Assembly: GCA_029237825.1 (NCBI GenBank)
Contig: JAQZBQ010000004.1
Span: forward strand, 186,001-250,000
Direction: 5' to 3'
Origin: Bacteroidota bacterium
Lineage (GTDB): Bacteria > Bacteroidota > Bacteroidia > B-17B0 > Aurantibacillaceae
DNA length: 64,000 bases
Position numbers and translations under genes: made by a program
The notes under the pieces: generated by a model
The model's database searches: none
Told to the model about the DNA's origin: nothing
Seen by the model: only the letters and a program-made list of their open reading frames with translations
Part shown: positions 2,948 to 59,210 of the stretch, piece after piece
How positions within the stretch are numbered: position 1 is the first letter of the stretch
Layout of the letters: every line of letters begins with the position of its first letter

Positions 2948-4648
2948 TTAACGGTTCATTCCAATTAAAAACTCCTCATTAGAACGGGTTTTACTCAGCT
3001 GATTTAATAAAAATTCCATCGCTTCTACCGGGTTCATATCCGAAAGGTGTTTCCTTAAAACCCAAAGCCGTTGCAGAGTTTCTTTATCCAGTAATAAATC
3101 ATCCCTTCTGGTGGAAGACGATGAAAGATCTACAGCAGGGAATATACGACGGTTAGCAATTTTTCGATCTAACTGCAACTCCATATTTCCGGTACCTTTA
3201 AATTCTTCGAAGATCACCTCATCCATTTTCGAACCTGTTTCGGTTAAAGCCGTTGCGATGATGGTTAAGGAACCTCCGTTTTCAATCTTACGTGCCGCAC
3301 CAAAAAACCGTTTTGGTTTTTGTAAAGCATTTGCTTCAACACCACCGGATAATACTTTTCCGCTTGACGGGGCTACCGTGTTGTAAGCACGGGCCATACG
3401 GGTAATACTGTCCAATAAAATTACCACATCATGCCCGCATTCCACCATACGTTTCGCCTTTTCCAGAACGATGTTGGCAATCTTTACATGCTTTTCGGCG
3501 GGTTCATCAAATGTAGATGATACCACTTCTGCTTTAACGCTGCGGGCCATGTCTGTTACCTCTTCCGGACGCTCATCAATTAATAAAATAATTAAATATA
3601 CTTCCGGGTGATTATAAGCAATTGCATTGGCAATATCCTTAAGCAATACCGTTTTTCCTGTTTTCGGCTGCGCTACAATTAAACCACGCTGCCCTTTACC
3701 AATGGGAGCAAACATATCAATAATACGTGTGCTGTTGTTTTGTAGAGGATGACCGGTTAATTTTAATTTTTCAGAAGGAAACAAAGGTGTTAAATAATCA
3801 AAAGGCACACGGTCTCTGATGTATGAAGGCTCGCGTCCGTTAATTTCTTCAACTTTTACTAACGGGAAAAATTTCTCGCCGTCTTTTGGTGGACGAATTC
3901 CGCCGCGCACCACATCCCCGGTTTTTAACCCGAATAATTTAACCTGTGATTGCGAAACATAAATATCATCTGGTGAACTTAAATAATTGTAATCTGAGCT
4001 TCTTAAAAATCCATAACCATCCGGCATCATTTCTAGAACTCCTTCACCAATGGCAATGCCATCGAAATTATAATAAACACGCTCTGGTTTTGGTTGATGT
4101 TTATGTTCCTGTTCTTTTGGTTCATGCATTTCCATGCCATCCGGTGTCTGAGGTTTTTCCTCCGCCTCAATATTGATGGCAAGGTCATTATTTACAACCG
4201 GTTTTACATCTTGTTGTTCTTTTTGCTGGTGTTGCGGATGGGATTGCTTGTGATGATGAACAGGAACTTTTCTAACATGTTCATCTTTTTTCTCAGATGC
4301 CTGGCGAACACTTTTCTCTTCCTGCACACGCGGTTCAACCGATGTTTCAACTGCAGGTTCTTCGAAAAGCGTTTTTTCAGTTTGAGAAATACCTTCAACC
4401 GGTTTTTGAATGCGAGGCTTCTTTACTTTTACATCGCCATTGCTTTTTTGCGCCGTGGCAGCCAAATTTTCTTTTTTCGGAAACTGAGCCGCGATTTTAG
4501 CTGCAGACTCCTGGTCGCCGGATTGTGCTTCGATGATTTTTATAATGAGATCGGGTTTAGCCAGTCCTTTGGAATCAATTCCAAATTGTTTGCAAATATC
4601 CTTCAGCTGAGACAATGCTCTGCCACTTAAATCTAATGCTTCAAACAT
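2948..4648 (-). CDS. rho: Transcription termination factor Rho with long disordered insertion
   Basis: Rho is the hexameric RNA-dependent ATPase that ends transcription. The 566 residues comprise a Rho_N helical domain (1-45), a long low-complexity insertion (about 50-190) rich in K, E, H, Q and P, a cold-shock-like RNA-binding domain (about 195-275) and the RecA-type ATPase. Walker A reads QPKTGKT (about residue 325), Walker B contains [10 protein letters not shown], and the Q/R-loop region includes [11 protein letters not shown]. coli Rho is 419 residues; the excess is the insertion, which is typical of Bacteroidota and is known in Bacteroides to promote condensates. The downstream partner is the DUF4199 gene. 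Confidence 0.97.
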
Positions 4649-4837
4649 AATTATGTTTAATAAGGGAAATAATAATTAAAAGAAAATTTAATATTTTAAA
4701 TGTGTTGTTGTGATTTTAGGATTACAAAGAAAATGCAAATCCCATTTTGATGCTACAAGTATAAGCATAAATTTTATAATACAAAATAATTTAAAAATAT
4801 ATTTAGGCCTCACAGAACACCATTAAATCAAATAAAA

Positions 4838-4845
4838 TATCTTTG
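4838..4845 (+). promoter_or_regulatory. -7 box TATCTTTG of pth
   Basis: This is a perfect match to the Bacteroidota -7 element TAnnTTTG. It ends four nucleotides before the pth ATG, so the transcript should start at or next to the start codon. No TTG -33 element stands at the usual distance. Confidence 0.6.
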
Positions 4846-4849
4846 TTTC

Positions 4850-5416
4850 ATGAGTAAATTTTTAATAGTGGGTTTAGGAAATATTGGAGATGAATATGCC
4901 CATTCGCGACATAATATTGGTTTCGATGTAGTTGATTTTATTGCCAGGGAGCATGACTTAAAGTTTAAATCTGATCGCTTGGCTGATGTTGCAGAATTCA
5001 AATATAAGGGAAAGCAAATGCTGTTGATTAAACCAACAACTTATATGAACCTTAGTGGTAAAGCCATCAATTATTGGATGCGGCACGAAAAGATTCCGAT
5101 TGAGAATGTTCTGGTGATTGTTGACGAACTGGCGCTGCCATTCGGTAAGATCAGGATCGGCCCAAAAGGTAGTGACGGAGGTCATAATGGGTTAAAAAGT
5201 ATTCAGGAGACATTAAATTCTAACCAGTATCCACGGTTACGATTTGGTATCAGTAATGAGTTCAATAAAGGCAACCAGGTTAATTACGTGTTGGGAAAAT
5301 GGAGCGAGGAAGAGCAGAAAACACTTACCGACCGAATTAAAATTGCAGCAGATGCAGTGAAAGCGTTCGCGTTTATTGGCCTTGCACGATGCATGAACGA
5401 GTTCAATACAAAATAA
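4850..5416 (+). CDS. pth: Peptidyl-tRNA hydrolase
   Basis: The enzyme releases peptides from peptidyl-tRNA dropped by ribosomes, recycling tRNA in the cytoplasm. The 188-residue length is standard. Visible motifs are the N-terminal GLGNIGDEYAHSRHNIGF with catalytic His21 and the tRNA-site Asn, the TYMNLSGKA strand, and the DELALPFGKIRI-GSDGGHNGLKSI block with the conserved Asp and His. The ATG at 4850 is preceded by a -7 promoter box only 4 nt away. It is convergent with tsaD, with 31 nt between the two stops. Confidence 0.96.
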   Translation: MSKFLIVGLGNIGDEYAHSRHNIGFDVVDFIAREHDLKFKSDRLADVAEFKYKGKQMLLIKPTTYMNLSGKAINYWMRHEKIPIENVLVIVDELALPFGKIRIGPKGSDGGHNGLKSIQETLNSNQYPRLRFGISNEFNKGNQVNYVLGKWSEEEQKTLTDRIKIAADAVKAFAFIGLARCMNEFNTK

Positions 5417-5447
5417 CTCATTAAAGTCATTAATCGTCAAAGTTCTA

Positions 5448-52406: not shown

Positions 52407-55373
52407 GTGATTAAAACCCTTTTTCAAATACTTATACTGCTTTCATTGTGTAGTGTTTCCTGTTACGGACAAAACACGGTAATGAAACACTTTTCAGTAA
52501 ACCACGGTTTACCCAGTTCGGAATGTTATTGGGTAATGCAGGACTCAAAAGGATACCTTTGGATTGCAACAGATGCGGGTGTTGTGAAGTACGACGGTTA
52601 TAATTTTGTAACCTACAATAATTCTAACGGTTTACCCGATAATACCGTCTTTAAAATTCGTGAAGATAGAAAAGGCAGAATTTGGTTTGCGAGCTATTCC
52701 GGGAAAATGGCTTACTATTCACACAACTCCGACTCAATCTTTGAAATCACTGCTAATAAAACGCTCGATCAGATAACCGATCATTACCCGGTTGATTTTA
52801 CATTTGATAGTCACGATACACTTTTTGTTTCTATTTCTCGACGAGGCTACGTGAAAATTCATCCCCCACATTATGCGCGGGTACAACATTATAATTATGA
52901 GAGAAATTGTTACTTTATCCGACGTGTGCAAAACGGCAACTGCATTTACGGAACTTCCTTCCATGAAAAATCTTTCTACAGGGAATTTGTCCCTCTTATA
53001 TGTGATAAAGGCGATAGTAAGTCTAATATTGATACATCCTTTAAAGTAAAAGCATCAATCGCGCATTTGGGTTTGGTTTATGAGTCAGATACGTCCGTAC
53101 TTTTTTCAAACGGTACAGCAATTTATTCCGTTTCCGAACACGCTAAAAGAACACTGTATCGGTATGCCGGGAACGTTAATAAAACCGTCTCGCTTTTTCG
53201 AGACAATCAGAAACGGCTTTGGTTGAACGGATTAAACGAGGGAACGAGGGTAGTGGAGCGTTTCGATTTTGAAAATCCTGCGTTTCATTTCCTGAAAGCG
53301 TTTTCAGTGTCGTCTGTTTGCCAGGACAGAGAGAACGGATATTGGATTTCCACGCTGGAAGACGGACTTTATTACATTCCTTCATTGAACTTTTCTTTTA
53401 TTGATAAATCAGATGGACTGCCAGCAAACAAAGTACTTTCCATTAGTTTATTAAATGGCAAGTTAAAATGTCTGACATCTGATTTTTCGATGTCGGAAAT
53501 TGACCTGAATTCAAACCAGATTAAAGTCAATGAGAAATTTAAATCAGCGGCGTGGTATATTTCGCAAAGTGATAAGTACTTGCTTTTTTGTTCGAACAAT
53601 CCCTATATCATGAAAGCAGGATCAGCTATAAAAGTACCATTATGGGTTAGCGGAGAAAACGGAGTGAGGGAACCAGTTCGGGTAAGGCGGGCAATTGATT
53701 ATGACGCGGACTATTTTTTGGGATTCGATCAGGGGGATTTACTTATGGTTCATAAAGAAACAGGTGAATGTAAATTAAAGCCATTAAACCTTCCAAACAT
53801 TTTTTCAGTGATGGTTCAGAAGGAAAAGGTATGGATAGGAACAAAATCAGGACTTTACCTTTATAATGGAAAGAGAATTGAGTACATGGGAAATGCGCAC
53901 CCCTTGCTAAAAAGCCGGGCAGAGGATATGATCAGTTGCGGCGATTCTCTTTGGATAGCAACCCGGGGAAACGGAGTGTTGTGCTTGTTCCAGGATTCCG
54001 TTGTGAAACAATATACTGAGTTAAATGGATTGGCAAGTAACATGACTAAATGCATTATAAAGGACGCACTCGGAAGTATTTGGATTGGAACTAACCGTGG
54101 AATTTCCAGACTGACAAAAAACAAAGACAATATTTACATGGTTGGTACTGTGAATATGAACAGCGGTTTGGTATCCAACGAGGTTAATAAAATGGTTGCG
54201 TACAATCATAAATTATATTTCGCAACTAACAAGGGTCTGGGAATCTTAAACGTAAACGATTTCTATGATCCGAAACTTTCCATTCCGGTATATATCGAAG
54301 AGATATTCATTGATAATGAAAAGGTAAAAGCCGTCCCTGTGCATCGACTCTCTCATCAGCAAAACATTATTAGTTTTAATTACAAAGGTGTTTGTATTAA
54401 GGAAAGCGGCGGCATAACCTATAAATATAAATTAGTAGGACTTGATACGAGCTGGACCTACTCTAAAAATACCTACGTTCAATATACCACACTTCCTTCC
54501 GGAAACTATCTGTTTATAGTTTATGCACTTAATCAGGACGGCAATTCCTTTTATCCCCCGGCTACAGTGAACTTTGTCATCGACACACCTTTATGGCAGA
54601 CGTGGTGGTTCATTCTTACCTGTATTGTCTTATTCTTTACAGTTTTACTTTTATTGTATAGAAACAGGATTGAGAGAATTAAAAAAGACGAGAAAGAAAA
54701 ATCAGCGGTTGCAAAAAAATTGGCAGAGTATGAATTAAAGGCCTTACGCGCGCAAATGAACCCGCATTTTATGTTTAATGCCATTAATTCAATTCAAAAC
54801 TTTGTTTTAAAAAACAATACAAAATATGCCTCACTATACCTTAGTAAATTTGCACGGTTGATTCGGTTCGTGCTTGATAATTCGAGGCACCAGCTAATCT
54901 TATTTACAAAGGAACTGGCTGCTTTGGAACTTTATATTGAACTTGAACAGATGCGTGCGTCATTTTCATTTGATTATGAAATCGTTATTGAAGAAAGCCT
55001 GAATTCAAAAGAATTTTTTATTCCGCCACTTCTTATTCAACCCTATATTGAAAATGCGATTATACACGGTATTATGCCATTACAGGATAGGAGAGGGAAG
55101 TTAAGCGTAAGGTTTTCAAGGAACAAAACCACTTTGCAGTGTGAAGTGGAAGATAACGGAATTGGCAGAGAAAAAGCTTTGGAAATCAGAACGCGAAAAC
55201 AACTAACCCATCAATCAATAGGAATGGAAGTAACGCGTGATCGTATCTCATTAATGAACAAGCAGCAGGATTCAATTTCTACAATTCATGTTGAAGATTT
55301 GTATACTCATGGAATAGCTAGCGGTACCCTTGTTAAAATTAGTATTAACTTAAAAACGTCACTTTATGATTAA
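52407..55373 (+). CDS. Two-component propeller histidine kinase (LytS-like output)
   Basis: The 988-residue membrane sensor has a signal peptide (1-22) and a periplasmic two-component-regulator propeller (about 25-640, blades with GLPSSECYWVMQDSKGYLWIATDAG-like repeats). A Y_Y_Y beta domain (about 650-720) and one membrane helix (about 730-752) follow. The His_kinase domain has phospho-acceptor His787 in MNPHFMFNAINS and an HATPase end (LLIQPYIENAIIHG, then EDNGIGREKA). The start is GTG: there is no in-frame ATG before the signal peptide. Its end overlaps the LytTR regulator by 8 nt. The signal sensed is unknown. Confidence 0.92.
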   Translation: MIKTLFQILILLSLCSVSCYGQNTVMKHFSVNHGLPSSECYWVMQDSKGYLWIATDAGVVKYDGYNFVTYNNSNGLPDNTVFKIREDRKGRIWFASYSGKMAYYSHNSDSIFEITANKTLDQITDHYPVDFTFDSHDTLFVSISRRGYVKIHPPHYARVQHYNYERNCYFIRRVQNGNCIYGTSFHEKSFYREFVPLICDKGDSKSNIDTSFKVKASIAHLGLVYESDTSVLFSNGTAIYSVSEHAKRTLYRYAGNVNKTVSLFRDNQKRLWLNGLNEGTRVVERFDFENPAFHFLKAFSVSSVCQDRENGYWISTLEDGLYYIPSLNFSFIDKSDGLPANKVLSISLLNGKLKCLTSDFSMSEIDLNSNQIKVNEKFKSAAWYISQSDKYLLFCSNNPYIMKAGSAIKVPLWVSGENGVREPVRVRRAIDYDADYFLGFDQGDLLMVHKETGECKLKPLNLPNIFSVMVQKEKVWIGTKSGLYLYNGKRIEYMGNAHPLLKSRAEDMISCGDSLWIATRGNGVLCLFQDSVVKQYTELNGLASNMTKCIIKDALGSIWIGTNRGISRLTKNKDNIYMVGTVNMNSGLVSNEVNKMVAYNHKLYFATNKGLGILNVNDFYDPKLSIPVYIEEIFIDNEKVKAVPVHRLSHQQNIISFNYKGVCIKESGGITYKYKLVGLDTSWTYSKNTYVQYTTLPSGNYLFIVYALNQDGNSFYPPATVNFVIDTPLWQTWWFILTCIVLFFTVLLLLYRNRIERIKKDEKEKSAVAKKLAEYELKALRAQMNPHFMFNAINSIQNFVLKNNTKYASLYLSKFARLIRFVLDNSRHQLILFTKELAALELYIELEQMRASFSFDYEIVIEESLNSKEFFIPPLLIQPYIENAIIHGIMPLQDRRGKLSVRFSRNKTTLQCEVEDNGIGREKALEIRTRKQLTHQSIGMEVTRDRISLMNKQQDSISTIHVEDLYTHGIASGTLVKISINLKTSLYD

Positions 55374-56118
55374 TGCACTGATAATAGATGATGAAATTGA
55401 TGGAGCAGAAGTCCTCCAGTTCCTCATCGAACAAAACTGCCTCAATGTGAATGTTCTTGGAATGGCACATTCGGTAAATTCTGCCGTTAACAGCATCAGG
55501 ACATTAAAGCCTGATGTGGTTTTTATGGATATAGAAATGCCAACGGGTACAGGCTTTGATGTTTTAAAGGCAACACAAGACATTAATTATGAAGTAATTT
55601 TTATTACTGCCTATGAACATTACGCCATAAAAGCTTTTAAGACAAACGCCATTGATTATCTATTAAAGCCGGTTATCATTGATGAATTGATAAATGCTAT
55701 CAAAAAGGCAGAAAAGCAAATTGGCCTTGCTGGCAAATTAAATTATTCAAACCAGATCGATTCACTTGTGTTAAACAATATCATTAGAAATAAGAAAATT
55801 GCAGTGCCTTCGCAGGAAGGTGTCTTATGGATAGATATTCAGGATATCATCCGATTTGAAGCGGAGTCGAATTATACGCACGTATTCATACGAAACCGGA
55901 AAAGAATTATGATTGCTAAAACGCTGAAAAGTTTCGAGGATCAGTTACAGAATACAAACTTTTGCAGGGTGCATAGTGCGCACCTCATTAATCTGGACGA
56001 GGTGGAGCGCTACATTAAAGGTGACGGAGGTAATGTGATTTTAAAAGATGAATCGTCTATCCCTATTTCACGGTCGCACAAAATGGAATTGCTCTCTAAA
56101 TTAAATATGTACCTTTAG
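55366..56118 (+). CDS. LytTR-family response regulator
   Basis: This is the cognate regulator of the overlapping kinase. The 250 residues have a receiver domain (1-120) with acidic pocket Asp8/Asp9, phospho-acceptor Asp55 (VVFMDIEMP) and the conserved Lys in DYLLKPV. A LytTR DNA-binding domain (about 148-248) follows, with IIRFEAESNYTHVFI, KTLKSFEDQL, FCRVHSAHLINL and a C-terminal IPISRSHKMELL. It probably controls genes through direct-repeat sites; none can be named here. The phosphoesterase gene begins 5 nt after its stop. Confidence 0.94.
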   Translation: MINALIIDDEIDGAEVLQFLIEQNCLNVNVLGMAHSVNSAVNSIRTLKPDVVFMDIEMPTGTGFDVLKATQDINYEVIFITAYEHYAIKAFKTNAIDYLLKPVIIDELINAIKKAEKQIGLAGKLNYSNQIDSLVLNNIIRNKKIAVPSQEGVLWIDIQDIIRFEAESNYTHVFIRNRKRIMIAKTLKSFEDQLQNTNFCRVHSAHLINLDEVERYIKGDGGNVILKDESSIPISRSHKMELLSKLNMYL

Positions 56119-56123
56119 CATGT

Positions 56124-56621
56124 TTGACGCATATTTTACTCATATCTGATACCCATGGCCATTTGGATAAAACTTTATTAAAGTACATTCACGCTGCTGA
56201 TGAAGTTTGGCATGCCGGGGATATCGGAAACAGTTTAGTTACGGAACGTATCAAGTCATTAAAGATTCTCAGAGCAGTGCATGGAAATATTGATGATGCT
56301 CCCACTCGCAAAGAATTCCCAAAGAATCTGATCTTCAATTGTGAAGGCGTAAAAGTTTTTATAACGCATATCTGCGGACAGCCTTCCAATTACTTAAAAG
56401 AGGTGAAAGAGATTTTATCAAACGAAAAGCCTAAAGTGTTTATTTGCGGGCACTCGCATATATTAAAAGTAATGTATCAGCCGCAATACGAAGTGTTGCA
56501 CATGAACCCCGGCGCTTGTGGCGTTCATGGATTTCACCAGATGAAAACAGCCCTGCGGTTTACCATTGATAAAGATGAGATTAAAGATCTTGCCGTGATC
56601 GAATTAGGAAAGAGACATTAA
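56124..56621 (+). CDS. YfcE/MJ0936-type metallophosphoesterase
   Basis: The 165-residue calcineurin-like phosphoesterase has two metal sites: LLISDTHGHLD (Asp and His), WHAGDIGN (Asp), AVHGNIDD (Asn), ITHICGQP (His) and FICGHSHIL (GHxH). This small family hydrolyses phosphodiesters such as cyclic nucleotides in vitro. The start codon is TTG, 5 nt after the LytTR regulator stop; the ATG just before it is in another frame and stops quickly. It is probably the third gene of the kinase-regulator operon. Confidence 0.9.
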   Translation: MTHILLISDTHGHLDKTLLKYIHAADEVWHAGDIGNSLVTERIKSLKILRAVHGNIDDAPTRKEFPKNLIFNCEGVKVFITHICGQPSNYLKEVKEILSNEKPKVFICGHSHILKVMYQPQYEVLHMNPGACGVHGFHQMKTALRFTIDKDEIKDLAVIELGKRH

Positions 56622-56660
56622 AACGGTTGTTGATTATAAGTAAATTGGAAATTATAACGC

Positions 56661-56699
56661 TTGGTAGTTGATTTAAATGTGTTATCTTCGATAACTTTA
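56661..56699 (+). promoter_or_regulatory. Double promoter of the ethylene-receptor-like gene
   Basis: Two overlapping promoter matches are present: TTG (56661-56663)-N19-TATCTTCG (56683-56690), and TTG (56668-56670)-N21-TAACTTTA (56692-56699). The second box ends 4 nt before the ATG. Confidence 0.5.
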
Positions 56700-56703
56700 T
56701 ACG

Positions 56704-57276
56704 ATGGAAGATATAACACATTTTTTTTCTAATTTATTTAATACGGATAGTTGGCCTCCCAGATGGCATTGTGGTGAATGGACCTCGTTTCATGGGTGGT
56801 TGTATATCTTTTCAGATTTAGCAATTTGGGGAGCTTATTTTATGATTCCGGTTGTTCTTTTAACTTTTATAAAAAAGAAGAAAGATGTTCCATTTAATAA
56901 TGTCTTTGTATTATTTGGAGCTTTTATACTCGCCTGCGGTTTAACGCATCTTATAGACGCTGTTATTTTTTGGTGGCCAGCGTACCGTTTAAGCGCTGTA
57001 ATTAGATTTATCACAGCAGTTGTTTCATGGGGTACTATTATCGCGCTGTTTAAGGTGATTCCCAAAGCTCTGCACTTAAAAACACCAGCGGAGTTAGAAT
57101 TGATTGTAAATGAGCGTACGGCTGAATTGATCGCGAAAAACACTAAATTGAAGGAATTGCATGAACATTTAAAGAATTCTTATGAGGATATGGAAGTTAA
57201 AATTAAATTTCGGACCGAAGCACTTGAAAAAACCAATAGAGAATTAGTTGAAGAAATTAAACGACTTAAAGGTTAA
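56704..57276 (+). CDS. Stand-alone ethylene-receptor (ETR1)-like membrane domain protein
   Basis: The 190 residues have three membrane helices (about 33-56, 65-90, 98-118) and a C-terminal coiled coil (about 128-188), then stop. The helices align without a gap to the ethylene-binding domain of plant ETR1 at a constant offset of 13. Asp38, Tyr45, Ile48, Pro49, Ile75, Cys78 and His82 match ETR1 Asp25, Tyr32, Ile35, Pro36, Ile62, Cys65 and His69; the Cys/His pair (ACGLTHL) binds copper in ETR1. The coiled coil (NERTAELIAKNTKLKEL) is of the kind that normally leads into a histidine kinase, but no kinase follows in any frame. Ethylene or another small ligand as signal is inferred. Confidence 0.85.
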   Translation: MEDITHFFSNLFNTDSWPPRWHCGEWTSFHGWLYIFSDLAIWGAYFMIPVVLLTFIKKKKDVPFNNVFVLFGAFILACGLTHLIDAVIFWWPAYRLSAVIRFITAVVSWGTIIALFKVIPKALHLKTPAELELIVNERTAELIAKNTKLKELHEHLKNSYEDMEVKIKFRTEALEKTNRELVEEIKRLKG

Positions 57277-57291
57277 AACTTTCCGAATTTA

Positions 57292-57660
57292 ATGAAGAAC
57301 ATTGGACTCCATGAGATTACAGAAGAGCACCTGTTGGGGGAATGGCATGTAGAAAACCGTTTTAACATTACTAATGACACCTCCAGTATTTTTTCAAAAA
57401 ACAACCGGCTTATCTTCGAACAAAATTCTTATCTGGCTATAAATGGCCTAAATGTTTCTGGTGAGTGGAGTGTGAGTATGAAGACCGAGTTAATATATAA
57501 TCCACTACTCACATTTTATGTTGAAAAAAAACTAATTGCGGAAGCGATTATCACACGATTAATCATAAGTGAGGAAGATTATTTAAACAAAAAAAATGCT
57601 TTCGTTTTAACATTGTATTTTACGAATGGGTTAGAATTGATTCTCAATAAAAAATCTTAA
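57292..57660 (+). CDS. Small protein of unknown function, downstream of the ethylene-receptor-like gene
   Basis: This 122-residue soluble protein has no signal peptide and no Cys. It contains alternating hydrophobic strands (HLLGEWHVENRFNI, LIFEQNSYLAINGLNVSGEW, FVLTLYFTNGLELILNKK) and looks like a small beta barrel of lipocalin-like type, although I cannot assign a family. It starts 15 nt after the preceding gene and has no promoter box of its own, so it is probably co-transcribed with it. Confidence 0.65.
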   Translation: MKNIGLHEITEEHLLGEWHVENRFNITNDTSSIFSKNNRLIFEQNSYLAINGLNVSGEWSVSMKTELIYNPLLTFYVEKKLIAEAIITRLIISEEDYLNKKNAFVLTLYFTNGLELILNKKS

Positions 57661-57904
57661 AGATTAGAACTAACACGTTAAACTTATTTCTTTAACGACT
57701 GTAAAAAAGTCATCACCTTGTTGATTTGTGCTATAACCAGCATAATTTTTATTATCCAAATACGGTTATAATTAATTTGCTTCTTGATCAAATAAATAGT
57801 CAATAGCCAAAGATCGTTAATTGCTTTTTCTATTTTATTTTCCTTAACATTTCGACAAGCTGTTCTCCGCGGGGTTTTGAGATATTTGAAAAAACAATTA
57901 AAAT

Positions 57905-58339
57905 ATGCGTAAACTACTTTTCTTTTTTTCAATAGGAGTATCACTTTCGGTTCAAGCGCAAATTCAACAGCAATATGCCAATTACCGTGCTGCTGAAAAC
58001 CAAAATCCTACGCCTCAGATGATACAAACCAATGTTCGCTGGGATTCCAATGATGTAAACGAGGAAAATCAATTTCAGCCACAAAACACCAATGTGAATA
58101 ATGCTATTGAAAGTACATATCATACCGTATCTTCTAACCGAATAAGCCGAGGAATAAATATGTTTTCTAAAAAGGGTATCGGTTCATCGGAAGCTAACGG
58201 ACGCAATAGTTCACGGTTAAACAGGCAAAGACACCACATTACAAAAAAGATCAAACGTTTTGAACGTAATTTTTACGGGAAACTGAACGGGCATAAAAAA
58301 AGCAAACACCTGGTTGATGTTTGCTTTAACTGGAAATAA
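57905..58339 (+). CDS. Small exported basic protein, unknown
   Basis: The 144-residue product has a signal peptide (1-19, MRKLLFFFSIGVSLSVQAQ). The mature chain is rich in Asn and Gln (20-75) and then strongly basic (about 78-144, many Arg, Lys and His). I recognise no domain. The last 15 or so codons coincide with the rpoD terminator on the other strand. It is convergent with rpoD, 7 nt from its stop. Confidence 0.6.
   Translation: MRKLLFFFSIGVSLSVQAQIQQQYANYRAAENQNPTPQMIQTNVRWDSNDVNEENQFQPQNTNVNNAIESTYHTVSSNRISRGINMFSKKGIGSSEANGRNSSRLNRQRHHITKKIKRFERNFYGKLNGHKKSKHLVDVCFNWK
58292..58327 (-). terminator. rpoD terminator inside the convergent gene's 3' end
   Basis: A 10-bp stem AAAGCAAACA / TGTTTGCTTT (58299-58308 with 58318-58327) is followed on the minus strand by a tract of seven T (including stem bases). 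It lies 20 nt after the rpoD stop. On the plus strand only three T follow, so it works best for rpoD. Confidence 0.8.
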
Positions 58340-58346
58340 ATTTTTA

Positions 58347-59210
58347 TTATCCTAAATACTGTTGTAATAATTTGCTTCTTGAACTATGACGTAAACGACG
58401 GATCGCTTTTTCTTTGATCTGGCGAACGCGCTCACGGGTTAAATCAAATTTATCACCTATCTCTTCTAAAGTTAAACCGTGGTTCAAGCCAATTCCGAAG
58501 AATAATTTAACTACGTCTCTTTCTCTTTCTGTTAAAGTAGAGAGGGCACGATCAATCTCTTTTGATAAAGATTCCATGATCAGTCCTGAATCCGCTTTTA
58601 ATGAATCATGATTCACTAAAACATCCAATAAAGAGCTTTCTTCACCGTTAGCAAATGGCGCATCCATACTCACATGGCGACCGGATACTTTCATGGTATC
58701 AGAAACTTTGTCAATCGGTAAATCCAATAATTCAGCAATTTCATCAGCGCTTGGTTCACGCTCAAATTCCTGTTCTAATTTTGAATACGCCTTGTTTATT
58801 TTATTTAAAGATCCTACCTGATTCAACGGTAAACGTACAATACGGGATTGTTCTGCTAAAGCCTGAAGAATTGATTGACGAATCCACCAAACCGCATAAG
58901 AAATAAATTTGAAACCACGGGTTTCATCAAAGCGGCGGGCGGCTTTAATTAAACCTAAATTTCCCTCGTTAATTAAATCCGGTAAACTCAAACCCTGGTT
59001 TTGGTATTGCTTTGCCACGGAAACAACGAAACGTAAATTTGCGCGGGTTAGTTTTTCTAATGCGTCCTGATCACCATCCTTGATTTTTTTTGCTAAAACA
59101 ACTTCCTCTTCAGCAGTAATTAATTCTTCCCGGCCAATCTCCTGTAAATATTTATCTAAAGAAGCACTCTCGCGATTTGTAATCGATTTGGTTATTTTAA
59201 GCTGTCTCAT
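58347..59210 (-). CDS. rpoD: Primary RNA polymerase sigma factor (RpoD/SigA)
   Basis: The 287-residue housekeeping sigma factor is of the short Bacteroidota type. Region 1.2 starts at [15 protein letters not shown], region 2 has [30 protein letters not shown] and [15 protein letters not shown], region 3 has [22 protein letters not shown], and region 4 has [35 protein letters not shown]. The N-terminal region 1.1 of E. coli RpoD is missing, as normal for the phylum. It recognises the TAnnTTTG/TTG promoters seen in this window. Confidence 0.97.

Follow-up and report, generated by a model that had tools for sequence, protein, structure and literature searches.

The window (the 64,000-nucleotide stretch of DNA that was analysed, from a Bacteroidota bacterium) contains a small open reading frame that begins with ATG at 56704, ends with TAA at 57276 and encodes a protein of 190 amino acids, here called the sensor. 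The features of the locus are as follows.

52407-56118, upstream of yfcE: genes of a Reg_prop/Y_Y_Y histidine kinase and a LytTR response regulator, with an 8-nt overlap.
56124..56621, + strand: YfcE-family phosphodiesterase, left flank (TIGR00040; in 19/20 genomes of the genus).
56622..57808, no strand: putative inserted segment of ~1.19 kb (sensor and g122), between yfcE and the ancestral intergenic region (sister-genome comparison).
56661..56690, + strand: possible Bacteroidota-type promoter, TTG-N19-TATCTTCG, with one mismatch to the -7 box TANNTTTG (pattern match only).
56704..57276, + strand: kinase-less ethylene-binding-domain sensor, 190 aa (ETR1_N match, single genome copy, AlphaFold2 model).
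56791..57078, + strand: ethylene-binding domain, residues 30-125, with membrane helices starting at residue 28 (Pfam, ETR1 alignment, AlphaFold2).
57139..57273, + strand: conserved C-terminal coiled-coil tail, residues 146-190 (LKNSYEDMEVKIKFRTEALEKTNREL...) (leave-one-out profile).
57292..57660, + strand: g122, 122 aa, predicted cytosolic, possibly a calycin (lipocalin-like) barrel (homologues, weak Pfam match, model).
57905..58339, + strand: g144, right flank (homologues ~40% identical at the same place in L134, L130 and L129).

We found that the sensor matches the ethylene-binding domain of plant ETR1. Residues 30-125 matched Pfam family ETR1_N (PF25487) with an E value of 5.7e-37 and 126 bits (cut-off, 27 bits), and the match spanned positions 2-97 of the 97 in the profile. 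The sensor's ETR1_N score (128 bits) was among the highest in a sample of 395 genomes of the phylum. A first-pass annotation of this DNA had described the protein as an orphan, ethylene-receptor-like sensor, and the profile search confirmed, at the level of sequence, that the domain is a true ETR1-type ethylene-binding domain and not a member of an unrelated family.

The residues that matter for ligand and copper binding were all present. In a pairwise alignment with the N-terminus of plant ETR1, the two sequences were 38% identical over 127 columns. All seven ETR1 ligand and copper residues had counterparts in the sensor (D38, Y45, I48, P49, I75, C78 and H82). The alignment with ETR1 had been reported as gap-free; this was true of the core from D25 to H69, with a constant offset of 13, and gaps were required beyond it. 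In an alignment of 59 sequences of bacterial relatives, Y45, P49, I75, C78 and H82 were invariant, and D38 and I48 were conserved in 54 and 55 sequences, respectively.

An AlphaFold2 model of the sensor (mean pLDDT 96.8) contained three helices of membrane length (residues 28-58, 65-87 and 94-124), as predicted for the three transmembrane helices of an ETR1-type domain. A fourth, long helix (residues 128-189, 62 residues) was followed by the stop, in agreement with the 60-residue coiled coil previously proposed for the end of the chain. Structure searches found no relatives of the sensor among solved structures.

The input domain is well known. In Azospirillum brasilense, the same domain, with its three transmembrane helices and seven required residues, is the basis of ethylene binding (PMC11819568), and the domain binds ethylene with copper in both A. 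brasilense and cyanobacteria (PMC11819568, PMC6682694). AzoEtr1 of A. brasilense and SynEtr1 of Synechocystis have the same three-helix domain and seven residues as the sensor. By analogy, we infer that the sensor binds ethylene. Alternatively, it might detect copper or another small ligand instead of ethylene, within the same two-gene arrangement described below. The invariance of the Cu(I) ligands C78 and H82 would fit such a function, and our search of the open-access literature turned up no Bacteroidota protein reported to bind ethylene. However, retention of the complete set of ethylene-binding residues, and ethylene binding by the proteobacterial and cyanobacterial homologues, make this quite unlikely.

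The sensor has no kinase. Ethylene receptor histidine kinases of the ETR1, SynEtr1 and AzoEtr1 type end in a HisKA/HATPase or kinase-like part that provides the output; the sensor carries none. AzoEtr1 is a single-chain histidine kinase of 525 aa with PAS and kinase parts, whereas the window chain stops after the coiled coil and is paired with g122. SynEtr1, also a single chain, has a cyanobacteriochrome and a kinase, and the sensor has neither. The plant ETR1/ERS receptors have the ethylene-binding domain in common with the sensor, which lacks their GAF, kinase and receiver parts and has no second receptor with which to form mixed dimers. Its nearest domain relatives (≤66% identity) are full-length kinases of Fulvivirga, Mucilaginibacter, Spirosoma and others (L023, L026, L033, L052 and more), and these run on into PAS and/or HisKA/HATPase domains where the sensor stops.

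We found no sign that a kinase had been lost to a frameshift. In tblastn searches of ~100 relatives against 56600-58400, no kinase remnant was found 3' of the sensor in any frame; the matches were at chance level or were gapped tails past the sensor stop. A frameshifted downstream kinase was thereby ruled out. The genes that follow the sensor are g122, g144 and a sigma factor gene, and none encodes a kinase. The earlier description of an orphan, kinase-less ethylene-binding protein with the full set of copper and ethylene residues was thus upheld by the PF25487 match, the alignment and the lack of a downstream kinase.

The sensor is also the only protein of its kind in its genome. Genome G000 (99.69% complete) contained exactly one ETR1_N domain, that of the sensor, and a survey for full-length kinases with the same domain found none there; a second full-length receptor was therefore ruled out. 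None of 19 further genomes of the genus had an ETR1_N match over the cut-off, and across the family the domain occurred in only 2 of 87 genomes. These results bear on the proposal that the sensor acts as a dominant modulator by dimerising with a full-length ethylene receptor in the same cell. Ethylene receptors do function as dimers (PMC6566107). Barring a receptor on a replicon missing from the assembly, the modulator proposal nonetheless fails because the sensor is the only ETR1_N domain in a near-complete genome, and with so few such domains in the family we regard it as extremely improbable. The companion proposal, signalling through another protein, we consider likely.

Stand-alone ethylene-binding domains are rare. 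Nearly all relatives of the domain are fused to kinases. In 395 genomes sampled from the class and 395 from the phylum, every other strong ETR1_N match lay in an open frame of at least 370 aa. Among the best 80 GTDB loci, the true short genes were apparently only L101 (Gramella) and L067 (a Bacteroidia MAG). Three other loci (L084, L041 and L079) looked short due to frame breaks and were rejected. Short matches on Acaryochloris plasmids were excluded from the count because the regions are annotated as fragmented kinase genes or adjoin an IS1 transposase. The sensor had no phage matches. Viral contigs gave zero matches to the sensor alone and to g122, and a search of them with the alignment gave a single distant relative, in a 413-aa frame.

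Comparison with sister genomes indicated that the sensor and g122 were gained together. The sister genomes have a short intergenic stretch immediately after yfcE, and some of them then have g144 and the sigma factor gene. The window aligns with the end of yfcE up to ~56623 and with the sister intergenic stretch from 57809 onward. Since both flanks can be aligned, the ~1.19 kb that carries the sensor and g122 appears to have been inserted here; loss elsewhere would be a less simple alternative. No terminal repeats stood out around the insertion. A phage or mobile origin was considered and not adopted, there being neither phage matches to the sensor nor outstanding terminal repeats.

The kinase and response regulator upstream of yfcE are not dedicated partners of the sensor, because the sister genome G003 carries both without the insertion and without an ethylene-binding domain. 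In the window and in G003 this pair occupies the position between a large gene further upstream and yfcE; several other genomes of the genus lack it there.

The gene next to the sensor, g122, is a small unannotated gene on the same strand, 15 nt away. No Pfam family matched its product over threshold; a lipocalin-like model matched only at E 0.016. A moderate-confidence structural model built from five sequences was mostly beta (pLDDT 71), and its best PDB matches were fatty-acid-binding proteins (E 0.06-0.2, not significant). A fold like that of fatty-acid-binding proteins and other calycins is therefore suggestive only.

Homologues of g122 are few. The only other genome of the genus with one is G016 (37-39% identical). 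Exactly four of the 395 class genomes had g122, and this search added G093, G219 and G400, all three of one genus. Plasmid searches added three Hymenobacter plasmids (L183, L198 and L199). On one of these, L198, the g122 gene is missing from the listed annotation. We did not find g122 in the fetched loci of full-length kinases with an ethylene-binding domain.

We found that g122 homologues consistently adjoin sensors that lack a kinase. In 8 of 8 cases (the window and seven others) the neighbour was a kinase-less sensor gene on the same strand, separated by -4 to 30 nt where measured. These eight are the only known g122 pairs, and all are from Bacteroidota. In G016, 3 nt separate g122 from the gene that follows it (L104 1852-2706), which encodes a CHASE3 membrane protein of 284 aa. 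This protein has no kinase and ends in a coiled coil like the tail of the window sensor. The other six neighbours (L183-L186, L198 and L199) are kinase-less PAS or PAS-PAS proteins of 179-310 aa. These seven loci thus resemble the window in the partner gene and in having no kinase in the chain; they differ from it in their input (CHASE3, PAS or PAS-PAS) and in gene order, g122 preceding the sensor gene in all seven and following it in the window. A PAS histidine kinase gene (L161 8115-9374) lies convergently downstream of the CHASE3 gene of L104.

The sensors of these pairs also have a C-terminal tail in common. The window tail (YxDLExKVxFRxxELE) was shared by six of the seven other g122-linked sensors, the exception being L199, and six tails align on the motif YxDLExKVxFRxLELE. 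In leave-one-out profiles, seven of the eight tails scored 33-67 bits and non-members at most 22.5. The window tail scored 33.4 bits, compared with 17.9 for the best non-member, a kinase linker. The L198 tail, which was outside the first profile, scored 55 bits, and the best non-member among all fetched loci scored 20. A profile made from Hymenobacter-type tails alone recovered L104 (33.2 bits) and the window (27.7 bits, E 4e-7) ahead of the next non-member (13.0 bits). In contrast, the L199 tail, when left out, scored 21.4 bits against 22.0 for a kinase linker.

Strong tail matches in the 395 class genomes came from the same four genomes that have g122. Because the tails of these four were part of the profile, it is the lack of a strong match in every other genome that counts as independent evidence. 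All other matches scored far lower, and those whose frame was read lay inside longer proteins, mostly kinases, whose sequence continued beyond the tail. By these sequence comparisons, the window locus has both marks of the group, an adjacent g122 on the same strand and a conserved coiled-coil tail that ends the chain. The comparisons demonstrate an intact ETR1-type domain joined to a conserved tail tightly beside g122, in a pairing that recurs with CHASE3, PAS and PAS-PAS inputs.

These results also bear on the possibility that the sensor is what remains of an ethylene-receptor kinase after a recent truncation, and is now decaying and without function. Such an origin might be expected from the kinase fusions of nearly all relatives and from the lack of the gene in the 19 other genomes of the genus. 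However, the frame is intact and keeps all seven functional residues, its ETR1_N score is among the highest in the phylum sample, and no kinase remnant follows it. In addition, the C-terminus fits the g122-linked tail better than any kinase linker does, and the gene lies with g122 in one insertion. We consider truncation very unlikely: because of the tail, the g122 pairing and the shared insertion, the sensor appears to be more than a cut-off kinase.

The two other stand-alone domains are organized differently. L101 (Gramella sp. AN32, 3001-5424) and L067 (Bacteroidia MAG, 3001-4982) resemble the sensor in being short, with a predicted coiled-coil end and no fused kinase. Unlike the sensor, they are followed by a PAS histidine kinase gene (10 nt and 41 nt downstream, respectively), have a different tail and lack g122. 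In L101, a receiver-domain gene follows the kinase gene. The two partner kinases are homologous (36%) and have a hydrophobic N-terminus. These arrangements look like split ethylene receptors, unlike that of the window, where no histidine kinase gene lies directly downstream.

A weakly resolved tree of the domain, computed from 107 rows and 136 columns, placed the window domain near the Fulvivirga kinases with modest support, and L067 and L101 as a separate, supported pair. The three stand-alone domains formed one group in 0 of 200 bootstrap trees. It is therefore probable that ethylene-binding domains became stand-alone on two or more occasions.

The window sensor could itself be half of a split two-component receptor, its coiled coil pairing with the linker of a separate soluble histidine kinase and so controlling phosphorylation of a response regulator. 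The gene order of L101 and L067 gives a precedent, the window tail resembles common kinase linkers, and a histidine kinase gene lies directly downstream of the g122-PAS pair of L199. Genome G000 has ~20 kinase-like matches, including a soluble double-PAS histidine kinase (G000:C13:76131-77288; L105) with two adjoining receiver-domain genes, which is a candidate partner of orphan sensors. However, the only kinase adjoining the sensor is that of the upstream Reg_prop/LytTR pair, discounted above, and most g122 pairs have no kinase directly beside them. L101 and L067 are a separate clade with different tails, and no match in G000 extended into the membrane region at the N-terminus of the L067 partner kinase. 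We regard a split receptor as unlikely here, although it is the most probable of the alternatives to the reading that follows.

Our results are probably best explained by a two-gene signalling cassette without a kinase, in which the 190-aa protein is the sensor subunit and output runs through the tail and g122, two features that the first-pass annotation had not included. From what is known of ETR1, SynEtr1 and AzoEtr1, the three-helix domain would dimerise in the inner membrane, C78 and H82 would hold Cu(I), and the ligand would be ethylene or a similar small olefin. Occupancy by the ligand might act on the coiled coil by changing its register or rotation, and the conserved tail might then signal to g122 by protein contact. 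One possibility is that g122 is an effector that the tail releases or captures; another is that it serves as an adaptor to a kinase encoded separately. The input domain may have been joined to the tail by domain shuffling, and the sensor and g122 would then have entered the genome as one insertion.

More tentatively, and with somewhat less than an even chance, the cassette may represent a class of bacterial signal transduction in which an exchangeable sensor (ethylene-binding, CHASE3 or PAS) is fused to one conserved tail, and this tail, in a chain that lacks a histidine kinase, controls a small protein of calycin-like type; the window would encode the ethylene-sensing version. In the open-access literature we found neither the cassette described nor any bacterial ethylene sensor that lacks a kinase. 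The two-gene cassette is apparently undescribed and is possibly a new kind. According to a review (PMC7700396), the putative outputs of prokaryotic homologues range 'from simple to complex'; short forms may therefore already have been noticed in isolated cases.

If the cassette reading is correct, receptor signalling of the plant-hormone type can occur without a kinase domain of the receptor's own. A domain grafted onto a common tail beside one partner would show how ethylene perception can be redirected to a different output. The pair is compact for study (190 and 122 aa), and the tail and g122 define a family that can be searched for independently of ethylene, including the PAS versions in Hymenobacter strains with complete genomes.

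The promoter pattern at 56661..56690 is expected to match ~0.15 times per 160 nt of the window.
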